From Ignavibacteria bacterium (GTDB taxonomy: Bacteria; Bacteroidota; Ignavibacteria; Ignavibacteriales; SURF-24), in the NCBI GenBank assembly GCA_025612245.1, contig JAAXKQ010000007.1:62001-126000 (forward strand): DNA of 64,000 bases, given 5' to 3'. Of this stretch, positions 27,810 to 45,031 are shown piece after piece. The position numbers and the translations under genes were made by a program. Position 1 is the first letter of the stretch. Every line of letters begins with the position of its first letter. A model generated the notes under the pieces. The model saw only the letters and a program-made list of their open reading frames with translations. It made no database searches and had not been told where the DNA came from.

Positions 27810-28070
27810 ATGGAAAGAAACGAAGTGGAATTACGCGTGAAAAAGGTGATCGCTGAAGTGCTTGAAATGGACCAGAGTAAAATTCAGCCCGAGGCAAATT
27901 TTATATTCGACCTGGGCGCAGACTCAATGCAGAGCCTCATGCTCGTGGCGGGACTTGAAGAGGAATTCAATATAAGAATGGATGAGGATAAAGCCCTTGA
28001 GATACAGTCTGTCCTTGGAGCTGTCGATTATGTCGGCTCCATCCTCGCGGAAAAGGAGCACGCTAAGTGA
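27810..28070 (+). CDS. Acyl carrier protein
   Basis: 86 residues of four-helix ACP. Ser39 in LGADSMQS carries the 4'-phosphopantetheine arm in place of the usual DSL motif. The rest (LEEEFNIRMDEDKALEI and VDYVGSILAE) follows the family. AAGGAG lies upstream of the ATG at 27810. It overlaps the next gene by four bases, so it is probably a dedicated ACP and not the housekeeping AcpP, which normally sits with fab genes. Confidence 0.85.
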   Translation: MERNEVELRVKKVIAEVLEMDQSKIQPEANFIFDLGADSMQSLMLVAGLEEEFNIRMDEDKALEIQSVLGAVDYVGSILAEKEHAK

Positions 28071-30199
28071 GCTTCCGTAAAATGAAAACCAGGGAGGAAA
28101 TTGAAAGGATCTTTTACCCCGCTTCAATTGCCGTCGTCGGGACAAACAAGGTTAAAGGTACCGTACCCTGCGACATACTGGAAAACATTCTTAAGGACGG
28201 CTACCAGGGCATAATCTACCCCGTCAACCCGAAAGAACGCTCTATATGCGGACTCAGGGTTTATAAGTACGTCATCGATATTGAGGACCAGGTGGATCTT
28301 GCCGTTATTGTCTATCCCGCCTCTGTCTGCCACCTTGCGGTTGAACAGTGCGGGCAGAAGGGAATTAAGTCCATGGTGATCATTTCCGCCGGCTTCAGGG
28401 AAACGGGACCTCCCGGAACCGAAAGGGAAAAACTTGTCGGGCAAATTGCAAACAAATATGGCATCTCTTTTATCGGCCCTAACTGCCTCGGCATAATAAA
28501 TACGGATCCCCTGGTAAGAATGAACGCTTCGTTTGCGCGCAGGATGCCCGATGAAGGCAATATAGCTTTCGTCTCTCAAAGCGGGGCACTGTGTACTGCT
28601 GTATTGGACTATGCCGCCTCAAAGCACATAGGATTCTCCAAATTTATCAGCTTCGGCAATAAGGCCGAAATAAATGAAATTGACCTCCTGAACTATCTCA
28701 AGGACGACCCGCTTACAAAAGTAATCCTCCTTTATCTCGAGGAAATCAGCGATGTTCAGGCCTTTATGGAAATCTCCCGCACAATTATAAGCCAAACCCG
28801 TAAACCGGTCCTCGTCCTTAAAGCCGGAAGAACCCCCGAAGGCGCCTCTGCCGCGGCTTCTCATACGGGCGCTCTTGCCGGTAAAGACGAAATCTGCGAG
28901 GCAGCATTCCGCCAGGCGGGAATTATACGCTGCGACGACATAGAACAAATGTTCAACTACGCCATCGCTTTTGCATACAGGCCGCTTCCTAAAGGAAACC
29001 ACATCGCAATTATTACAAACGCCGGGGGACCCGGGGTGCTGACTACGGATATGGCCGTCAGAATGGGCCTTAAGCTATCTGAATTTTCTGAAGAAACTAC
29101 GCGCACGCTCAAGAAAAACCTCCCGGCGGCTGCAAATATTAAAAATCCCGTGGACGTAATAGGCGACGCTTCCCCGGAACGCTACAGCGTCGCACTGAAT
29201 GCGGCATTAAACGACGATAACGTAGAGGCTGCAATGGTAATCCTTACGCCGCAGTCAATGACCGATATTAAATCTGTCGCACGCGAGATTTCATCTGTGG
29301 CGGAAAATTCTGTCAAACCGGTGCTGGCCTCTTTCATGGGTGCCTCCGACGTTGCAATTGGAGTGGACCTGCTGCAGAAGAAAAATATTCCCCATTACCA
29401 ACTGCCTGAAAATATGTGCCGCGCCTTTGCATGCGCATACGGCTTTACAAAAGAGCTGGAAAAAAAGCATACCCCCGTCCCAAGGTTTGCGGATATCGAC
29501 TCTGCCGCAGTCCGCTGCCTTCTGGATGAGGCCCTTGCAGCAGGGAGGCACTACTTAACCGAAACGGAAACACTCAACATTCTGGAAGCCTGCAGGCTGC
29601 CCGTTTTGCCTAGAGCCGTCGTATCTTCATGCTCCGAAGCCCTCTATGTGGCTGCCGATATAGGCTACCCCGTCGTAATGAAAGTTGTCTCGGATTTTAT
29701 CGTGCACAAGTCCGATATGGGCGGCGTGGTGCTTAATATTTCAAGGCACGAGGAAGCCGAAGAGGCCTATAAAAAAATAATCCGTAACGCGGAGGCCTCC
29801 CTCCCTAAAGGCGCTATTGCGGGCCTGCTGGTGGAAAAAATGGTCGGGGATGGCCAGGAGGTGATACTCGGACTTAAAAGGGATCCGCAGTTCGGACCGG
29901 TTATTATGTTCGGCCTCGGGGGAATTTATGTGGAGGTCTTTAAGGATGTCAGTTTCAGAATTGCACCCGTGTGGAAGGAATCCGTCCGGGAAATGATCAC
30001 TGAAATCAGGTCCTTCCCCGTCCTTGCCGGCGTGCGCGGGAAAAAACCGAGAGACGTCGAAAGCATTGAAACCTGTATTGAACGCCTCTCGCAGCTTGCG
30101 CTCGATTTCCCCGAAATTAAAGAACTCGATATGAATCCGCTCATCGTTGAAGAAAAGGGAAAGGGCTGCTTTGTTGCTGACGCAAGAATAATCCTTTAG
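28067..30199 (+). CDS. ADP-forming acyl-CoA synthetase, fused alpha and beta subunits
   Basis: 710 residues. The enzyme class interconverts acyl-CoA, ADP and phosphate with acid, CoA and ATP through a phosphohistidine. Residues about 10-140 form a CoA-binding Rossmann domain (FYPASIAVVGTN). The ligase part carries His266 in ASHTGALAGK as candidate phospho-His. Residues about 480-710 form an ATP-grasp domain (GYPVVMKVVSDFIVHKSDMG, MFGLGGIYVEVFKDVSFRI, LDMNPL). The start is a GTG within the ACP stop (GTGA overlap) with AAGGAG nine bases upstream; an ATG at 28082 is the alternative. A tightly coupled ACP is unusual for this enzyme class. Confidence 0.85.
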   Translation: MSFRKMKTREEIERIFYPASIAVVGTNKVKGTVPCDILENILKDGYQGIIYPVNPKERSICGLRVYKYVIDIEDQVDLAVIVYPASVCHLAVEQCGQKGIKSMVIISAGFRETGPPGTEREKLVGQIANKYGISFIGPNCLGIINTDPLVRMNASFARRMPDEGNIAFVSQSGALCTAVLDYAASKHIGFSKFISFGNKAEINEIDLLNYLKDDPLTKVILLYLEEISDVQAFMEISRTIISQTRKPVLVLKAGRTPEGASAAASHTGALAGKDEICEAAFRQAGIIRCDDIEQMFNYAIAFAYRPLPKGNHIAIITNAGGPGVLTTDMAVRMGLKLSEFSEETTRTLKKNLPAAANIKNPVDVIGDASPERYSVALNAALNDDNVEAAMVILTPQSMTDIKSVAREISSVAENSVKPVLASFMGASDVAIGVDLLQKKNIPHYQLPENMCRAFACAYGFTKELEKKHTPVPRFADIDSAAVRCLLDEALAAGRHYLTETETLNILEACRLPVLPRAVVSSCSEALYVAADIGYPVVMKVVSDFIVHKSDMGGVVLNISRHEEAEEAYKKIIRNAEASLPKGAIAGLLVEKMVGDGQEVILGLKRDPQFGPVIMFGLGGIYVEVFKDVSFRIAPVWKESVREMITEIRSFPVLAGVRGKKPRDVESIETCIERLSQLALDFPEIKELDMNPLIVEEKGKGCFVADARIIL

Positions 30200-30279: not shown

Positions 30280-32268
30280 ATGGACTTAAGAAATCTATCC
30301 GGATATGAAATCAATATGCTCTACAGCCAGGGCTGTACGGCTGACGACTGGGGCGCAATTCTGGTGCCCAGGGATTTTGATACCGAAAGGCTGCGCAATG
30401 TGCATTTCAGCGGCGATAACATACTGGGCTCTTTCAGAAAAAAAGTCCTCCTTTCCGGCGGCCTCGAAATGCCTTCCGGCATCTATCACTCGCACATTCA
30501 TAACTGCTCCTTCGGCAACGACGTTTACCTTAACGGCGTAGGGCTCATTGCCAATTACGACGTCGAGCACGACGTAATAATCGAAAACGTACTTACACTC
30601 GCAACCGAAGGCATGAGCTCTTTTGGGAACGGAATCGATATCGAAATACTGAACGAGGCCGGCGGCCGCAAAGTAAAAATCTATGACCGCCTCTCTTCCC
30701 AGATCGCCTACTTCCTGGCTTTCTATAGGCATAAGACGCCATTTATCAGCGGCCTGGAAAAAATGATCGATGACCGCGTTAAGGCCAGGACTTTTGAAAC
30801 GGGAAGAATTAAAAAATTCAGCCGCGTAACTAACTGCGGCAAAATTAAAAATGTCTTCATCGGCGAATTTTCTGAAATAGATGGCGCGCTTAAACTTGTT
30901 AACGGCTCTGTCCTGAGCTCAGAGGAAAATCCAGCCCTGATCGGCGCCGGGGTTGAGGCGGTGGATTTTATAGCCCAGGCAGGCTCACGCATCGAAAATA
31001 GCGCAATTCTTAACAGGTGCTTCGTGGGGCAGGGAGTACATGTCGGCCGGCAGTACTCGGCACAGGATTCAGCTTTCTTCGCAAACTCCGAGGCTTTCCA
31101 CGGCGAAGGCTGCTCCGTATTCGCGGGCCCTTACACGGTTACACATCATAAATCCACACTCCTTATTGCAGGATTTTTCTCTTTTTTCAACGCCGGAAGT
31201 GCCACAAATCAGAGTAACCATATGTACAGGCTTGGACCCGTGCACCAGGGGGTGCTGGAAAGGGGAGTCAAAACCGGCTCTTTCAGCTATCTCATCTGGC
31301 CATCAAGAATAGGAGCCTTTACAGCCCTGCTGGGCAAGCACTTTAATAATTTTGATTCCTCCGACTTCCCCTTCTCATATATCTCGGAAGAAGACGGAAA
31401 AAGTATTCTTACTCCCGCAATGAACCTGTTCTCAGCGGGAACCAAAAGAGACACAATGAAATGGCCCTTGCGCGACAGGAGAAAGGGTAACGGTAAACTC
31501 GACCTTATAAACTTTGACGCGTTCAGCCCTTACACCGTAGGCAGAATGCTGAATGCCGCGGCGATACTGCAGGACATGTACCGGAAAACTCCAAAGGAAG
31601 AAAAAACAGTTCCATACAAGGGAATAGAGATTAACCGCCTTATGCTCAGGACTTCGGCCAGGTATTACGAAATGGGAGTTAAGGTTTTTATGGGGCAATG
31701 CCTGGTCGAACAGATTGAAAAAACAGGGGCAAAAGTGCTTGATGAATTGAATACTGCTGAAGCCTTTACGGGCAGTGAGGTAATGGAGGTCTGGAACGAT
31801 ATAGCAGGGCTCCTTGCGCCTGTATCCGAAGTTAACCGCCTCGTGGACGCTGTTAGCTTCGGGGAGATAAACCGTATTGAAATTCTTGAGGATAAATTAA
31901 AACTCATCTGGCAAAGCTACCAGGAAAATAAGTGGCAATGGTGCCTGAGGCTCATTAAGAAAAGATGCGCCCTAAGCCGCGAAAACCTTACTCCCGGGTA
32001 CCTCGCCGGCCTCATACGTGACTGGAGAACCGAAGCCGTAAAGCTCAACAACATGATTTTGAAAGATGCAATGAGGGAGTTCGATGAGATTTCTAAAATA
32101 GGCTACGGAATTGACGGCAGCATGGACGAAGACTTTCTTGCCGTGCGCGGCAGTTGTGAGGAAAACAGCTTTATCGGGCAGTTGAAAGAAGAGAACGCGC
32201 AGATTGAGGAAAGGGCCCTTAAGGCTCTTTCAATTCTGGAAAGCCACATTGAAAGCGTTCATGCATAA
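30280..32268 (+). CDS. DUF4954 family protein
   Basis: 662 residues. It matches the DUF4954 family, common in Bacteroidota and with no established function. The first half has irregular left-handed beta-helix style strands (NCSFGNDVYLNGVGLIANY, VFIGEFSEIDGALKLVNGSV, AILNRCFVGQGVHVG), as in sugar-nucleotide or acyltransferase hexapeptide proteins. The second half (from about 430) is helical. The start has GGGAGG upstream, and an 80-base gap follows the ADP-forming synthetase, so the three genes may form one transcription unit. A role in glycan or nucleotide-sugar chemistry is only a guess from the fold. Confidence 0.8.
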   Translation: MDLRNLSGYEINMLYSQGCTADDWGAILVPRDFDTERLRNVHFSGDNILGSFRKKVLLSGGLEMPSGIYHSHIHNCSFGNDVYLNGVGLIANYDVEHDVIIENVLTLATEGMSSFGNGIDIEILNEAGGRKVKIYDRLSSQIAYFLAFYRHKTPFISGLEKMIDDRVKARTFETGRIKKFSRVTNCGKIKNVFIGEFSEIDGALKLVNGSVLSSEENPALIGAGVEAVDFIAQAGSRIENSAILNRCFVGQGVHVGRQYSAQDSAFFANSEAFHGEGCSVFAGPYTVTHHKSTLLIAGFFSFFNAGSATNQSNHMYRLGPVHQGVLERGVKTGSFSYLIWPSRIGAFTALLGKHFNNFDSSDFPFSYISEEDGKSILTPAMNLFSAGTKRDTMKWPLRDRRKGNGKLDLINFDAFSPYTVGRMLNAAAILQDMYRKTPKEEKTVPYKGIEINRLMLRTSARYYEMGVKVFMGQCLVEQIEKTGAKVLDELNTAEAFTGSEVMEVWNDIAGLLAPVSEVNRLVDAVSFGEINRIEILEDKLKLIWQSYQENKWQWCLRLIKKRCALSRENLTPGYLAGLIRDWRTEAVKLNNMILKDAMREFDEISKIGYGIDGSMDEDFLAVRGSCEENSFIGQLKEENAQIEERALKALSILESHIESVHA

Positions 32269-33397: not shown

Positions 33398-33727
33398 ATG
33401 GATCACAACTTAACTACTACTGCGTTTTCAATTGACGGCTATAAGGTGGCCCAAAATCTCGGCATCGTAAGGGGTATTGTCGTCAGGTCTCGCTCTATAT
33501 TCGGAACTATCGGCGCCAGCCTGCAGACCATTGTTGGGGGTAACATTTCGCTTTTTACGGAGCTCTGCGAAAAAACACGCAACGATTCATTCGAGCTCAT
33601 GGTAAAACACGCCGAGGAGCTTGGCGCAAACGGCGTAATTGGCATACGCTACGATGCCAACGAGGTAATGTCCGGCGTAACTGAAGTGCTTGCCTACGGC
33701 ACCGCCGTGGTGCTCGAAAAAAACTGA
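33398..33727 (+). CDS. YbjQ/DUF74 family heavy-metal-binding-like protein
   Basis: 109 residues with the family's VRGIVVRSRSIFGTIGASLQ and HAEELGANGVIGIRYDA motifs. YbjQ proteins form pentamers and are of unknown function. Its stop codon is only three bases from the end of the convergent large ligase gene at 33731, with no terminator between. Confidence 0.85.
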   Translation: MDHNLTTTAFSIDGYKVAQNLGIVRGIVVRSRSIFGTIGASLQTIVGGNISLFTELCEKTRNDSFELMVKHAEELGANGVIGIRYDANEVMSGVTEVLAYGTAVVLEKN

Positions 33728-33730
33728 TCG

Positions 33731-36700
33731 TTATGCCAGAAACCTTACCAGTCCGCCCCAGCGGCTGTCTACCCTGAACATGTGCTTTGAGAAAAAGGAC
33801 GTCAGGTAAAAATGCGTTGTAACAACCTGTATGCCTTCTGCCATTAAACGGTTGCAGAAGTCTTCCAGAAGCACACTTCCTATGCCGCGGCCGCGGAAAG
33901 GTGCCGCAACTACAATCCCTTCCAGGTGCACTACATTGGAATCCAGTATCTTGTAGCAGATTCCGCCGTTTACGCTTTCCTGCTCCTCATTGTCGGTTAA
34001 AATAAGGAAGTGATCCTCCGAGGTAATGTTAACAGGGTAGTCATCCAGAATGAAAAGACGGTTCAGGTTGCCTACTTCAAAAGGCGAGAGCGCCTGCCTT
34101 ACAACGTGAGCTACATTCCTGCGGTCGGATACAAGCGTCTTTACTATGACCGATTTCCTTTCGTCTTCGCCAATCGGAATGAGCTCCATCTGCAGCCTCT
34201 TCGAAACCTCCGGAAAAACGAGCTTGCTGAATACCTGCCTGTCCTCATACGAGGTGAGCGCGTCCTGAAGTTCGGAAAGCTCAATTAGCCTCGTTGCATG
34301 AACCTCCGGCTGCTCAAACATTACTCGTATCAGGTTCCTGAAGCTTTCCTTTACGTTCTCATCGGCATCGGCAAAGTAGGTCTTCTGGTAAAACATGTAA
34401 CGCGTTATTGCGGGAAAATGATTCAACTGGTAGAGCGAATAAAGCTTCCTTATAAACTGCTCGCGTGCCTCACTGGTTGACCCGGGGTTCTGCGATATCC
34501 ATTCGTTGTATCTTTCTACTGCCCCCAGAAGTGCAAGATTTTCATAAGGCTCGGTTTTCCTTTTCTCCAGGTACCTGTCAATTGCGTCTTTGAGGTCGAA
34601 CTCCTCATATCTCATAGGCGAATTTACCACGTCATTCTTCAGCGCCTCCAGGTACTTAAGCGCCCTCTTCTTCGTGAAAGCCTCAACTGCGGCGTCAAAC
34701 ATCCATTCAATCTTAATTGTGTCCTTGTTCCAGGGATAGTTGCCTATCGTCTGAAGATAAAAGTTCTTGATAAAAGGATGAATAATGCAGAGCGTATTGC
34801 TGTAAGGCTGCCAGCCCGACAAAGAAAGTATGCGCGAGTTCAGCTTCAGGTCGGCCTCAGGTACCACAACGTTTGTCGGCGTAATTGAACCCGGCGTAAG
34901 CGCGTAGCCGCTGTTCTGCCAGGCCTTGAGAAAGGCTGTAAACGCCCTGACAAAAAGGGCCTTCCACCTGTATTCGGTCTTAAGCGAGCGCTGTGTAGTC
35001 TTGACGCTCGAGTAATCGCGTATTTTGTCCCATACCGTCAGGTCATTTACGTAAGCCAGCGAGGCCGCCCCCATCTGTGAACGGAAGTTCCCGAATTTAG
35101 GCATTACGGAAGAAGTACCCGGGTAGCCCGATATCTTAATCATCCAGTAAATCGTCTCGCGCACCGCCGTACGCGTAATGTCGTCTTTTATAAGAAGCAT
35201 CAGGTCGTAGTGCTTGTCATATATCGTGTTTATGCTGATGCGGTATAAAAATGAGTTATGAGGCGAAAGTATCCTCGATATCCAGATGCCTTCATTCGGT
35301 ATATGCTTCAGGTTGAATTTGTCTTCTTCAAATATCAGCAGGAGCGATTCTTTGAGGAAAGTTGAGCAGAAGAGTACCTTCTCAATCCTGTTCCTTTCCT
35401 CGGCCGTGAAATCCTCCTGGAAGACTACTCTTTCGTTCCAGTTCTCTTTTTCCATTTCAAATGCAGTCAGTTCGAAAGTGGACTCGAACCAGGAAGAAAG
35501 CTTGTTGAAAAGCTCCTGTGCATAAGAAGAAAGCTGAGGCTCTTTCTTGTGAAGTATCCAGCTTACCAGCTCCTCTCTCACGGCGCCGTATGAATTCCTG
35601 TTGTGACGCGCAAAATTCACTAGCAGCTCAAGTATTCTCTTAAACTGCGTAACCATAACGCCCGAGGAATTCCAGTCGAGCGTCGTGCGGTACGATTCCA
35701 GCCTCTGGCGCAGCGCTTCAAGCCGCCCGCGCTCAAAATCCGCCTGTGAGATCTGCTCAATGCTTTTCTTGTTGATAAAAGGAAGCCCCGAGTTGATAAA
35801 TGCCGGCAGATACTTGCTGTAATCCAGCCACGGCTCGTCAAAAAGCAGTATCTTATAGGCGTAGCTCCTGACCTCAAAATCGGGATGCAGTGCGAGTGCC
35901 TCAAGCCTGCGCCTGATGAGGTATGCAACCCTGTGGCTTTCGGTGTGGAGCGATTTCTCCATTCGGGTTACCGCCTCCAGGGCAGCGCTGCCGCGCCCGT
36001 AAATGCTGGTTACTGCAACCTCATTTAACTCTTTTAGTTTTGCTTCCGGTATTTTGTTGCTGATAAGTGGAAGCTTCCCGCCATGAAGCCTGCTTAAACT
36101 GGAGGCAAGAAATACCTGCGGCGAAATTTTCTCATGAGGCGTATCCCACCCGTCCTTGCAAAGAGCAAAGTTGATGAGCGAAATGTTGCCCGTCCAGAGC
36201 ATGGGCTGCCTTATAAAGGTCCCCAGGTCCACCTGCTGGCCCCATACGACGTACTCAAAGTCTCCAATCTGCACCCTTTCTGTTTTGGCGTTAAACTTAA
36301 TGGTTATGCGCGTATTGTTCTGCCTGTTAAAAAGACCGTCATGCTGGCTTTTTATGTCGTATTCCGTAATCCCAAGGTCCCTTATTACCCAGCGCGGAAT
36401 GACAACCTTCAGGCTGTCAATCTTAAAGTCAACGTTTGGATATTTGTACATCCTGGCAATTTCAGCGGCAAAGCTGGCTTCAATGGCCTTGCGCCTCATG
36501 CTCCCCTTGGAAGTAAGCTCACCCCTTTGCTCCTCAAAATCCCTGCTCAGGATTGCAAAATCCACAATTCGTTCGTACGGGGCAAGCTCCCTGTTGGCCG
36601 AGGCAATAATGGGACGGAAGTAATCCGTCTGCTTCTTTTTGGAAACCGCTTTCTGAAGTATGGCGTCGGTATTGTCGGGGACGATTAAAAGCGTATTGTA

Positions 36701-38311
36701 TGCAAGGCCGTCGCCCACCAGGAAAGTCCTCTTAAAGCCCGGAATGTTATCGAACATCTTTTCAATGGGGCGGGGAGCAATTGTCTGCCCCTTGTTATTC
36801 TTATAAATGTCCTTTATGCGGTCAACTATGTGATAGTGCCCGTTTTTATCGACCTTGAACAGGTCGCCCGTGGGCATCCAGCCCTGGTTTTTCTCCTTTA
36901 TGTCGTCATCCAGGTACTTTGCAACGTAGTGGCCTTTTATCTCCAGCTCACCTTTTGCGCTCAGGCGCATCTCAATGCCGGGCAGGGGAATGCCGACAGA
37001 ATTTTTTACGTACTGTCCAGGAGGCGTCATGCAGATTCCCCCGGTGGCCTCTGTCATGCCGAACCCGCTACAGAGCTCAACCTCGTGGTCGTGGAAAAAC
37101 TGGAACACCTTCGGGTCCAGGTAGCCCGCAGCCGAAAGGCCCCAGCGCAGGTTTTTACCCGTAAGCTCCTTAAAGAGCCTCTTGTCAACAGATTTAGCCG
37201 ACTGGTGGAGGAATTTATCCCTTATCTGCACAAGCCTGAGCGGTATGCTGATAATGCCCGTAGGGTTTACTTTCTGCATCAGGCTTAATAGCGTTTCAAT
37301 GGAAGGATTTCCCGCAAAGACGTACGTCCCTCCCCAGAAAATCATCCCCATCATCTCCAGATATCTGCCAAAAGTGTGGAAAAGGGGAAGGTAGCAGAGA
37401 AGAACTTCTTTTTCACCTACTTCGGGCAGTGCCGCTGCGCGCGCAAAGCGCTTTGTAATGAGGTTATACATGGTAAAAACAACGCCTTTGGCCATGCCGG
37501 TGCTGCCCGATGTAAAAAGAACCGTTGCAGCATCGTGAAGCGAAAGCCTTTTTCTGACTGAAAGTATGTTCTCAATCCTCGCCGGGTCAAGCTCGGAGAT
37601 TAGCTTTTCCATTATGTAAACGCCTGGAACGGGCTCTATCCTGTCGTAGCCGGTATAAATAATCTTAAACGGATGCCCGAGCTTCTCTCTTACCCTTAAG
37701 AGCAGGTTGAGCCTTGTTTCGGAATCCGTAACGGCAAGGTTTATGTTCGTCCTGCTGAAGATGTCCGTAACCGTATCCGAGCTGAAGTGTATATTTAACG
37801 GGGCGTCAAATATGTCGTAAAGCAGGCACGCAATGTCGCAGCTCGCGCTTTCGAGCGTGTTTTCAGAGAAAATTGCCACCCTGGGCTTAGCCTCGGCGGC
37901 TTCATAGAATACAGAGGCAATCTGGCGCGCTCTTTTCTGCACCCACCTGTAGCTGAATTCGGCAAGCTTGTTGTCTTCGGTTACGGAAAAGAGAATTCTT
38001 TCCGGGTGAGCTTCCACCCTCTGGTCAAAAAGTGCCTTCAGGTTATAATCCGATATGTTTATCGCTTCAAAAGCCGTATCGGCCCACCTGTAGCGCAAGG
38101 CCGTGTCACCCAGGCTCCTTAAGAACGCCGTGCGGCGCGTCAGGTCGAGGTATTTGTGCCAGAAGCTTTCTCCGGCATCGGTTCTCACGGGTAAGGCAAG
38201 TATCTCTTCGGCCAGGCTTAAGACCCTGCAGGCCGAGGATTTGTCTAGTTCCTGCTTGTTTTTCCACTTTTCAAGTTCAGAATGTAAGTCGTTAATTATT
38301 CCGTTATACAT
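33731..38311 (-). CDS. 1526-residue fusion: acyl-AMP ligase, large unknown domain, GNAT acetyltransferase
   Basis: The N-terminal adenylation domain (about 90-620) shows the P-loop LFTSGSTGMAKG at 265-276, GFGMTEATGG at 416-425, PTGDL at 480-484 and VDRIKDIYKNNKG near 496-508, so it activates a carboxylic acid, probably a fatty acid, as acyl-AMP. In the A10-like region, GELTSKGSMRRK at 597-608, the usual catalytic lysine position aligns with Ser604, although Lys602 and Lys608 are near. Residues about 620-1380 match no domain I recognise and contain helix-rich and mixed parts. The C-terminus (about 1380-1526) is a GNAT fold, with the acetyl-CoA motif FRGRGIGSVLLED. No ACP or CoA-transferase lies next to it. 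The substrate and the acetyl acceptor are unknown. Confidence 0.75.
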   Translation of the reverse strand: MYNGIINDLHSELEKWKNKQELDKSSACRVLSLAEEILALPVRTDAGESFWHKYLDLTRRTAFLRSLGDTALRYRWADTAFEAINISDYNLKALFDQRVEAHPERILFSVTEDNKLAEFSYRWVQKRARQIASVFYEAAEAKPRVAIFSENTLESASCDIACLLYDIFDAPLNIHFSSDTVTDIFSRTNINLAVTDSETRLNLLLRVREKLGHPFKIIYTGYDRIEPVPGVYIMEKLISELDPARIENILSVRKRLSLHDAATVLFTSGSTGMAKGVVFTMYNLITKRFARAAALPEVGEKEVLLCYLPLFHTFGRYLEMMGMIFWGGTYVFAGNPSIETLLSLMQKVNPTGIISIPLRLVQIRDKFLHQSAKSVDKRLFKELTGKNLRWGLSAAGYLDPKVFQFFHDHEVELCSGFGMTEATGGICMTPPGQYVKNSVGIPLPGIEMRLSAKGELEIKGHYVAKYLDDDIKEKNQGWMPTGDLFKVDKNGHYHIVDRIKDIYKNNKGQTIAPRPIEKMFDNIPGFKRTFLVGDGLAYNTLLIVPDNTDAILQKAVSKKKQTDYFRPIIASANRELAPYERIVDFAILSRDFEEQRGELTSKGSMRRKAIEASFAAEIARMYKYPNVDFKIDSLKVVIPRWVIRDLGITEYDIKSQHDGLFNRQNNTRITIKFNAKTERVQIGDFEYVVWGQQVDLGTFIRQPMLWTGNISLINFALCKDGWDTPHEKISPQVFLASSLSRLHGGKLPLISNKIPEAKLKELNEVAVTSIYGRGSAALEAVTRMEKSLHTESHRVAYLIRRRLEALALHPDFEVRSYAYKILLFDEPWLDYSKYLPAFINSGLPFINKKSIEQISQADFERGRLEALRQRLESYRTTLDWNSSGVMVTQFKRILELLVNFARHNRNSYGAVREELVSWILHKKEPQLSSYAQELFNKLSSWFESTFELTAFEMEKENWNERVVFQEDFTAEERNRIEKVLFCSTFLKESLLLIFEEDKFNLKHIPNEGIWISRILSPHNSFLYRISINTIYDKHYDLMLLIKDDITRTAVRETIYWMIKISGYPGTSSVMPKFGNFRSQMGAASLAYVNDLTVWDKIRDYSSVKTTQRSLKTEYRWKALFVRAFTAFLKAWQNSGYALTPGSITPTNVVVPEADLKLNSRILSLSGWQPYSNTLCIIHPFIKNFYLQTIGNYPWNKDTIKIEWMFDAAVEAFTKKRALKYLEALKNDVVNSPMRYEEFDLKDAIDRYLEKRKTEPYENLALLGAVERYNEWISQNPGSTSEAREQFIRKLYSLYQLNHFPAITRYMFYQKTYFADADENVKESFRNLIRVMFEQPEVHATRLIELSELQDALTSYEDRQVFSKLVFPEVSKRLQMELIPIGEDERKSVIVKTLVSDRRNVAHVVRQALSPFEVGNLNRLFILDDYPVNITSEDHFLILTDNEEQESVNGGICYKILDSNVVHLEGIVVAAPFRGRGIGSVLLEDFCNRLMAEGIQVVTTHFYLTSFFSKHMFRVDSRWGGLVRFLA

Positions 38312-38608: not shown

Positions 38609-39748
38609 ATGGACGCGACAAAAAAACGTTTTGCCTTTATTGATCTTTACAGGGGCTGGGCTCTTTTATTCATGATCGAGACCCACATCTTTAACGCCAT
38701 GCTGCAGCCGGAGTTAAGCACCAGTGCGTGGTTTAAGTATCTTACCTTTATAAACGGGCTTGTTGCGCCCTCGTTTTTGTTTATTTCGGGCTTTGCCTTT
38801 ACAATTGCGAGCCAGAGAAAGCTCGATGCCTTCAGAGAGTATAAGTTCGATTTCTGGCGGCAGCTGGGAAGAATTGCCTTGATCTGGCTCATTGGCTATT
38901 CGCTCAGGCTTCCTTACCTTTCGATCCAGAAGATGCTCCATAAGGCCAGCCCCGAGGAGATACTCCCTTTCTTAAGCGTGGACGTGCTGCACTGCATTGC
39001 TTTCGGCCTGCTCCTGATGTTCATACTCAGGCTTTTTATTAAAAGTGACGTTATTTATAACTCCATACTCGTTGCCGTTACGTTCATCTCCTTTATGTTT
39101 GCCCCGCTGGTCTATAAAATTGACTTCACGCAGTATATGCCGCTGCCTTTGGCAAACTATTTTAACGAACAGCACGGATCACTTTTCCCTTTGTTCCCGT
39201 GGCTCGGCTTTATGCTCTCAGGCTCGGTTATAAGCTACTTCTATATGCTCTTTAAGAACCGGAACGAGGAGGCAAAATTCCTGAAAGTTGCGCTTGGAAG
39301 CGGTATAGCCTGTATGCTGGTAGGAGCATTTGTCCTGTGGTTCCCGCTCGATATGCTGGACTATATAAGCAAAATTGTGCCTAACCAGTTCTTCTTCCTC
39401 ATGCGACTTGGAATTGTTCTGGTCCTGCTCATCTCCTTAAGGTATTATGAAATTTCAAGGGATACAAAAAAATCCTTTGTACTCGAAGTAGGACGCGAGT
39501 CCCTCCTGGTTTACTGGCTGCACCTGCAGGTAATCTACAGGAAACTCTGGCAGGGTACAACCCTTTATTCAATTGTCGGGCAGCGCTTCGACTTCCTGCA
39601 GTGCATTCTGGCTTCAATTGCGCTTGCGGGACTCATGGTTTTATCTGCAATGCTGTGGACACGAATTAAAAAACGCTATAAGCTTTTTTCGCAAATTGCT
39701 ACCGTTGCCATGGTTTCAATTGTAATTATTGTGTTCTTTTTGAAATAG
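38609..39748 (+). CDS. HGSNAT/DUF1624-type membrane acyltransferase-like protein
   Basis: 379 residues with about ten hydrophobic segments. The N-terminus KRFAFIDLYRGWALLFMIETHIF matches the RFxFxDxxRG opening of the heparan-alpha-glucosaminide N-acetyltransferase/DUF1624 group, and SFLFISGFAFTIASQRK continues the pattern. Such proteins move acyl groups across the membrane onto glycans. Acceptor unknown. The catalytic His of HGSNAT-type enzymes may be the His in METHIF. There is no coupled partner gene nearby. Confidence 0.7.
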   Translation: MDATKKRFAFIDLYRGWALLFMIETHIFNAMLQPELSTSAWFKYLTFINGLVAPSFLFISGFAFTIASQRKLDAFREYKFDFWRQLGRIALIWLIGYSLRLPYLSIQKMLHKASPEEILPFLSVDVLHCIAFGLLLMFILRLFIKSDVIYNSILVAVTFISFMFAPLVYKIDFTQYMPLPLANYFNEQHGSLFPLFPWLGFMLSGSVISYFYMLFKNRNEEAKFLKVALGSGIACMLVGAFVLWFPLDMLDYISKIVPNQFFFLMRLGIVLVLLISLRYYEISRDTKKSFVLEVGRESLLVYWLHLQVIYRKLWQGTTLYSIVGQRFDFLQCILASIALAGLMVLSAMLWTRIKKRYKLFSQIATVAMVSIVIIVFFLK

Positions 39749-43663: not shown

Positions 43664-45031
43664 TTATCTTATGGTTCTTTGTCCCAAATAGAGAATTGCC
43701 TCACTTCCCGTACTCCCGACGGCACAAATGGTATTTCCCTTCATGTCCATGCCGTAGAAGTTCCCGTAAAACATTGCAACCTCACTTCCCATGTAGTTCT
43801 TCCAGGTCTTCCCGTTGAAGTGGCATATCTCCCCGAATCCCCCGGCTATGGCAAAGTCGTTGCTTGCATTCCCTGAAATTGTGTGGGTGTAGTACCTCGT
43901 AACTTCATCGTACTTGTCATCCCATGAAAAGGGGTTTATTCCCCGGTTAAGAGTAAAGATCCCGTCTCCACCCAAGAAGATTTTATTTACCCCCAGGAAC
44001 CATATAGACTCAAAGTTCCATCTTAAGCCATTAATTGGGAGCTCAGTTACCCTGTCGTTCTTTATCCGGAGTACTCTGGGAGTGGCAAACATGTCCAGGT
44101 TAGCAGCCACACAGATGACCACCTCTTCACCCGTAATGGGGTCGGTACTTCCCCACACATCCTGGATATCCAGGTCTGTGCCGCTTTCAATCTTCTTCCA
44201 CTTCTTCCCGTCAAAATGGGCTATTGCTCCTTTTCGTCCAACGGCATAGATGTTCTCTGAGGAACTGCCCCAGAGTTTTCTTATCTCATGGTCTTTCTCC
44301 AGGATGATCGTAGTGGAATCAAAGTTACCGGAGAAATCAACGATCCAGTAGCACTTTGTCACTTTCTTCCCGTCGAAGTGGATTACGCCGCCATTTGCAA
44401 ACCAGATGTCATTGCCTGAAAAGGCGAGAACATCCATAGGAGTGAGAAAAGTAGTGTAGTGCGACACGTATGCCGGGAGCTTTACCTGCTTCCACTCCTT
44501 CCCGTCCCAGTGTACCGCTCCAACTGGCTCATAGTCGTCTTTGCCTTCAGGGAGGTTTGAATACATATCTCCCACTGCCCAGATGTCATTGTCGTTAATG
44601 ATTGCCACATCCCAAAGCCCGCTGGTACGGTTTGATACGGAGAAGCTCCTGAAATGAAAGTCATGGCTCGTCGTATCCATTGTGGTCAGTCTTACTTCTT
44701 CTGAAGGGAAAAGGCCCTTAATGGCTCTGTAGGTATACTGCCTTCCCGGGCTGAGTGAGTCTTCACAGATGAGAGTGTCCTTTCCCTGAAGACGGAAGGA
44801 AAGAATGGTTGAACCGTCACGCTGAAGTGTTATTGTCTGCCAGGGGTTTACGGGTTCAGACCTGAGCCTGATCCAGGCCTCTGTAGAGGAGACTTCTTCA
44901 ACACTAACTGAGAAGGAACCGTAAGGCTTGAGATTTCCCGGTTCATTTACACTGCAGCCCTGGGCTAAGGCTAAAAGGAAAATGAGGATGAACTTACAGT
45001 GCCTTCTGAAGAAACCAGCTGAACTATTCAT
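43664..45031 (-). CDS. Lipoprotein with beta-propeller-like repeats (paralogue of 806-2185)
   Basis: 455 residues. A hydrophobic segment ending in LAQGC (Cys26) is followed by the same domain order as the gene at 806-2185. Shared strings include TMDTTSHDF, the ND(N)DIWAVGD motif and AHFDGKKWKKIESGTDL for ALRHFNGNKWELIESGTNL. The repeated NxxIWF-HFDGK units look like propeller blades. The two copies sit about 42 kb apart on opposite strands, so they look like an old duplication and not a recent one. Function unknown. Confidence 0.75.
   Translation of the reverse strand: MNSSAGFFRRHCKFILIFLLALAQGCSVNEPGNLKPYGSFSVSVEEVSSTEAWIRLRSEPVNPWQTITLQRDGSTILSFRLQGKDTLICEDSLSPGRQYTYRAIKGLFPSEEVRLTTMDTTSHDFHFRSFSVSNRTSGLWDVAIINDNDIWAVGDMYSNLPEGKDDYEPVGAVHWDGKEWKQVKLPAYVSHYTTFLTPMDVLAFSGNDIWFANGGVIHFDGKKVTKCYWIVDFSGNFDSTTIILEKDHEIRKLWGSSSENIYAVGRKGAIAHFDGKKWKKIESGTDLDIQDVWGSTDPITGEEVVICVAANLDMFATPRVLRIKNDRVTELPINGLRWNFESIWFLGVNKIFLGGDGIFTLNRGINPFSWDDKYDEVTRYYTHTISGNASNDFAIAGGFGEICHFNGKTWKNYMGSEVAMFYGNFYGMDMKGNTICAVGSTGSEAILYLGQRTIR

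Follow-up and report, generated by a model that had tools for sequence, protein, structure and literature searches.

The window, that is, the whole stretch of 64,000 nucleotides that was analysed, carries on its minus strand an open reading frame (33731-38311) which starts with ATG, has no internal stops and encodes 1526 residues. The extent of the gene, which encodes a protein composed of ligase, kinase-like and GNAT parts, is based on the ORF call and on orthologues of the same length. A YbjQ family gene (33398-33727, plus strand) converges on the fusion gene and ends 3 bp from its stop codon. On the other side, a gene for an HGSNAT-like membrane acyltransferase (38609-39748, plus strand) is transcribed divergently at a distance of 297 bp, and this divergent pair is retained in three related genomes (G001, G003 and G004). 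The Rfam search returned no RNA features. A mobile or defence element was considered and rejected, with no plasmid matches and no PADLOC families found. Elsewhere in the window, an ORF of 455 aa (43664-45031, minus strand) has no Pfam matches.

Within the fusion protein, Pfam recognized AMP-binding (PF00501, residues 95-463, E 1e-48), AMP-binding_C_3 (PF23562, residues 507-623, E 3e-13) and Acetyltransf_1 (PF00583, residues 1430-1506, E 1e-8). These domains flank about 750 residues (approximately 625-1375) for which searches of Pfam, NCBIfam and PDB sequences gave no matches. The sequence-only reading, which had described a ligase, roughly 760 unassigned residues and a GNAT domain, was therefore correct about the three-part architecture. 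Six segments, all encoded on the minus strand, can be distinguished. Residues 1-623 (36443-38311) comprise an N-terminal helical extension (about 1-94) and the AMP-forming (ANL) ligase, as defined by Pfam and by motif counts in 83 relatives. They are followed by a beta-rich domain (residues 625-750; 36062-36439), delimited from the structure model and from conservation and having no Pfam, NCBIfam or PDB matches, and by a helical region (residues 751-949; 35465-36061), which the secondary structure of the predicted model marks as a possible alpha-solenoid. The next segment (residues 950-1240; 34592-35464) is predicted by the model, the fold search and motif counts to contain a protein-kinase-like fold at about 970-1240. 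Extra helices past the kinase-like lobe (residues 1241-1374; 34190-34591), recognized from conservation and the model, lead to the GNAT acyltransferase domain (residues 1375-1526; 33734-34189), assigned by Pfam, VIA-align, a profile match and motif counts.

The fusion is not an artefact of this genome. Full-length matches of 88%, 69% and 58% identity (same family), 45-48% (genus g28) and about 29% (rest of the order) are all single ORFs of 1515-1638 codons, and the fusion is present in 27 of 59 related genomes. The single chain proposed from the sequence holds, and a merge of frames that are neighbours in relatives is excluded, because the relatives retain one ORF down to about 28% identity. 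A few split copies look like isolated events or errors; two of them come from metagenome-assembled genomes, with an in-frame stop after the beta domain (L082, 7922-12697) or within the kinase-like domain (L092, 4738-9621). A species-level scan, which relied on a C-terminal pattern that copies without the GNAT could escape, located 89 encoding places, of which 80 were kept (one genome per species). The carriers belong to the Ignavibacteria and other Bacteroidota, Gemmatimonadota, Acidobacteriota and Calditrichota, and include a planctomycete, a deltaproteobacterium and others. The profile of the architecture across genomes, suggested by the sequence-only reading as a check, thus recovered the same full-length fusion in several phyla: the complete ligase-middle-GNAT chain was found in nearly all places where the contig allowed it, nearly always as one ORF of 1515-1650 aa. 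Moreover, a profile of the kinase-like region matched 21 of 395 genomes of the phylum, all of which belong either to a single order or to a single family within the same class. Each match lay inside an ORF of 1515-1640 codons, and no stand-alone copy was found in the 395 genomes. Within the fusion family, ligase and GNAT were never found apart.

The fixation of this one-chain architecture over several phyla suggests that the modules work together. The dN/dS values between the window copy and its same-genus orthologue were 0.04-0.08 in all six segments, and this purifying selection on every segment indicates a functional single chain and not a chance fusion. The tree separates two old subfamilies, the larger one and the window's own, and the Gemmatimonadota members form one clade. 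The window's subfamily consists of its own family, genus g28 and family f11; the f11 members, 40-42% identical to the window copy, were placed there by identity. The fusion is therefore more widespread than a single sequence could reveal. Nothing matching it was found in the open-licence papers that could be searched, and within this searchable literature the combination of ligase, kinase-like and GNAT domains is absent from any described family.

The ligase module contains the core motifs A3, A5, A7 and A8 and a lysine in the A10 region, which places it in the ANL superfamily. In the window copy, these motifs are TSGxTGxxKG (267-276), GFGMTEA (416-422), TGD (481-483), DRxKxIYKN (497-505) and ELTxKG (598-603). 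In the 83 aligned relatives, TSG[ST]TGxxKG, SGFGM[TS]EA, TGD, DRxKxIYKN, T600 and K602 are near- or fully invariant, and because of this strict conservation the ligase is probably catalytically active. K602 is a candidate for the A10 catalytic lysine, judged from its position in the motif. The closest NCBIfam and PDB sequence matches are long-chain acyl-CoA ligases, luciferases and A-domains of carboxylic acid reductases, and models of fatty acyl-AMP ligases (FAALs), whose characteristic insertion prevents the formation of acyl-CoA, fell outside the best 25 of the 81 NCBIfam matches. The term acyl-AMP ligase, used in the sequence-only reading, is acceptable as a description of the chemistry, with long-chain acyl-CoA ligases and carboxylic acid reductase A-domains as the nearest models. 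The fusion shares the core motifs and the AMP-binding_C_3 subdomain with both of these groups; it differs from them in that the ligase is followed by the middle region and the GNAT, and not by a carrier-protein or reductase domain. Pfam found neither a carrier protein nor an NAD(P)H reductase domain past the A-domain, as a carboxylic acid reductase would have, and no carrier-protein domain anywhere in the chain, the middle region included.

At the C-terminus, the predicted GNAT fold begins at about residue 1375-1390, ahead of the start of the Pfam match at 1430. VIA-align of the model gave Z scores of 15.6 to YhbS and 15.3 to Gcn5, and a profile of the C-terminal 900 residues had Tetrahymena Gcn5 as its best match (E 1.5e-7). 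The acetyl-CoA loop, described as intact in the earlier reading, is indeed so: it reads R1473-G-R-G1476-I-G, with R1473 present in 83/83 and G1476 in 82/83 relatives. Together with the fold, this R/Q-x-x-G-x-G/A loop assigns the domain to the GNAT superfamily, although in most relatives the loop has the form R-x-x-G-x-S/A. Gcn5- and YhbS-type GNATs share with the fusion the fold, the CoA loop and a conserved acid on the beta strand preceding the loop. They differ in the end of the loop, which is Ser or Ala in most relatives of the fusion, and in size, the chain described here having about 1500 residues. The acid, at position 1464, is E or D in all 83 relatives. In the alignment, the catalytic Glu of Gcn5 lies on the corresponding strand, two residues ahead of E1464. 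Many GNATs modify small molecules, and a Gcn5-like GNAT fold is no proof of a protein substrate.

The sequence-only reading had judged the middle domain to be new. This stands as far as sequence matches are concerned, but the best-conserved part of the region folds like a protein kinase in the predicted models, which makes the middle in part a known fold. The AlphaFold model of residues 625-1526 (82 aligned relatives; pLDDT 85.5, pTM 0.78) begins with the beta-rich domain (625-750) and continues with helices at 751-949, a mixed domain at about 970-1240, further helices and finally the GNAT. G683, W706, G708 and N709 are almost invariant in the beta-rich domain, as are W1271, A1282, Y1294, R1304 and T1311 in the helices of residues 1241-1374. 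When residues 950-1370 were modelled alone (pLDDT 87.9, pTM 0.86), the fold search gave Bud32 (4ww7) with Z 13.9 over 220 residues at an rmsd of 3.4 A, and all of the 50 best listed entries were kinases, including PRPK, PsiK, choline kinase, Rio1 and corramycin phosphotransferase. The predicted model thus has the bilobal protein-kinase-like (PKL) fold. Structure prediction and fold search, which the earlier reading had proposed for the middle, pointed to a kinase-like fold at about 970-1240 and left the beta and helical parts without an assigned fold. A global fold match to PI3K/mTOR/ATM was not trusted because of its rmsd of 15-19.

On the predicted model, residues 970-1240 are kinase-shaped, but they do not form a canonical kinase. 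The motifs were located by eye from the order of strands and helices. The canonical kinase catalytic loop contains the motif DLKPEN, whose counterpart here is residues 1142-1147. At the HRD-Asp position (1142), 65 of the 71 rows of the main subfamily have D, N or E and the window copy has Ser, and the loop Asn (N1147) is present in the window copy and mostly conserved among relatives. At the position of the DFG Asp (Ser1163), Ser occurs in 81/82 relatives and Asp in no row, and beta3 has no lysine that is conserved among the aligned relatives. The features of an active kinase are therefore incomplete, and the Ser at the DFG position and the missing lysine mark the domain as probably a pseudokinase. 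With Bud32/PRPK, PsiK, choline kinase, Rio1 and APH, the fusion has in common the PxN catalytic-loop pattern and, in the predicted model, the bilobal fold (Z 13.9 to 10), whereas the DFG Asp, the beta3 Lys and any detectable sequence-profile similarity to them are missing. The 25 Pfam families listed for the 82 members include no kinase family, the PDB profile search gave no kinase matches, and no signal resulted from hhalign comparisons with related fructosamine-kinase/APH proteins. It is nevertheless possible to imagine an active enzyme of unusual chemistry, such as nucleotidyl transfer, in a protein with three activities. The conservation of the HRD-Asp position in the main clade, the loop Asn, an unusual HDY motif and the nearly invariant Ser would fit such an enzyme and indicates that the pocket is under selection. 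The lack of the DFG Asp and of a conserved beta3 Lys, along with the loss of HDY and the Ser at the HRD-Asp position in the window copy, makes it very improbable.

Genomic surroundings provide a further indication of function. In the larger subfamily, the commonest neighbour is citrate synthase (PF00285), located within 10 kb of the fusion in 37/77 loci, and this is the sole genomic link that recurs across phyla. In Ignavibacteria it is usually the gene directly upstream of the fusion. Five Gemmatimonadota loci, two Acidobacteriota loci, a deltaproteobacterium and an unclassified genome have it downstream of the fusion, on one strand or the other. Since the proximity is retained while the gene order changes, a functional tie between the two genes in the larger subfamily is suggested, beyond inherited order alone. 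The tie fails for the window's subfamily, because its own family has only a distant prokaryote-type citrate synthase elsewhere in the genome and family f11 has none near the fusion. An obligatory partnership was also rejected: the window's family is without the eukaryote-like enzyme, and the order has this enzyme with or without the fusion. Comparison of the window's own genome (G000, contig C26:83568-84587) with relatives of the order showed that the eukaryote-like citrate synthase missing in the window's family is carried by most of the order. In many Ignavibacteria, citrate synthase and the fusion are directly preceded by a hopanoid-like gene set, made up of two squalene/phytoene-synthase-like genes and one of amine-oxidase type (L041, L050, L054, L063, L078, L090 and others).

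The reading that we favour, tentatively and with the prospect that it may well be wrong, is that of a Pat-like single-chain protein acyltransferase with an AMP-forming ligase module. The domain order, the intact ligase and GNAT motifs, the kinase-like fold without canonical catalytic residues and the synteny come from sequence or model; from these we infer the two activities, the acceptor and a role in regulation. The N-terminal ligase would activate a carboxylate with ATP, probably yielding acyl-CoA, or would report how much acyl-CoA is supplied. Together, the beta and helical parts and the kinase-like domain would serve as a scaffold, whose pseudokinase would bind a nucleotide or a protein and so dock the substrate or pass on a signal. 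The Gcn5-like GNAT would then move an acetyl or acyl group from CoA onto an amine, in all likelihood that of protein lysines. In the larger subfamily, a plausible target would be the citrate synthase encoded nearby or a different enzyme at the entry of acetyl-CoA into the TCA cycle.

The sequence-only reading had instead suggested a multi-step modification of a lipid or peptide. Such a modification is possible, but nothing pointing to a lipid was found, and the citrate synthase link is at least as suggestive of protein acylation or of a regulatory role in central metabolism. Close to that suggestion is a self-contained synthase of N-acylated small molecules or lipids, in which the ligase would convert a fatty acid to acyl-AMP or acyl-CoA and the GNAT would pass the acyl group to an amino acid, amino sugar or polyamine; this acceptor might be bound by the kinase-like fold, by analogy with choline and aminoglycoside kinases and their small substrates. 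The nearest ligase models (long-chain acyl-CoA ligases and carboxylic acid reductase A-domains), the small-molecule kinases among the structural neighbours (PsiK, choline kinase, corramycin phosphotransferase) and the HGSNAT-like gene divergent from the fusion in the window's family are all consistent with it. It is considered somewhat unlikely, as lipid, NRPS or export genes do not recurrently adjoin the fusion across phyla, the chain has no carrier-protein domain, and the best structural neighbour, Bud32/PRPK, is dedicated to proteins.

The invariance of K602 in 83 relatives can also be read in another way, namely that the fusion is a self-regulated acyl-CoA synthetase, whose GNAT would acetylate the candidate catalytic lysine of the ligase at high acetyl-CoA and so switch acid activation off. 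The model for this would be Pat and AcuA, which act in trans on acetyl-CoA synthetase, and GNAT control of AMP-forming synthetases is established (PMC11255334, PMC4053389). The constant association of ligase and GNAT in the fusion family also agrees with self-regulation, and acetyl-CoA homeostasis would fit the citrate synthase synteny. However, the 750 conserved residues of the middle would be left unexplained, no deacetylase gene is prominent among the neighbours, and K602 is assigned as the A10 lysine by motif position, so that we regard this explanation as doubtful.

The Pat-like acyltransferase reading has its closest precedent in bacterial GNAT lysine acetyltransferases of types I and II, whose chains combine a synthetase domain with a GNAT and sense acetyl-CoA; in the Pat family, acetyl-CoA is sensed by a synthetase domain that is NDP-forming and inactive, and the GNAT acetylates lysines (PMC8556138). 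Five architectures of bacterial GNAT lysine acetyltransferases have been described, none with an AMP-forming ligase or a kinase-like domain (PMC8556138). Pat, PatZ and SlPatA resemble the fusion in joining an acyl-CoA-synthetase-type module and a GNAT in one large chain, but their synthetase is NDP-forming and inactive, whereas the ligase described here is AMP-forming with all motifs intact and is separated from the GNAT by about 750 residues with a kinase-like fold. In its fullest form, the proposal would be that single-chain protein acyltransferases of several phyla make their own acyl-CoA through the fused ligase, choose targets through the pseudokinase, have citrate synthase as the main target in the larger subfamily and constitute a type beyond the five described; in this entirety it is unlikely. 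The fusion may represent a type of acylation enzyme that has so far gone unrecognised and is linked to central carbon metabolism. If so, a new architecture would join those known among enzymes that regulate metabolism through acylation, a pseudokinase would have been recruited into such an enzyme, and acetyl-CoA/TCA control could be approached directly in phyla that have received little study. Even otherwise, a 750-residue region that has no Pfam or NCBIfam family and is conserved in several phyla can now be described by its domain boundaries, a predicted fold for part of its length and a candidate for a partner gene. In the fusion, Pfam found AMP-binding in place of the CoA_binding_2, Succ_CoA_lig and ATP-grasp_5 domains. 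A separate ADP-forming acyl-CoA synthetase composed of these three domains adjoins a DUF4954-DUF6819 protein in the window (28067-30199 and 30280-32268, both plus strand), and this pair is retained in the related genome G001.
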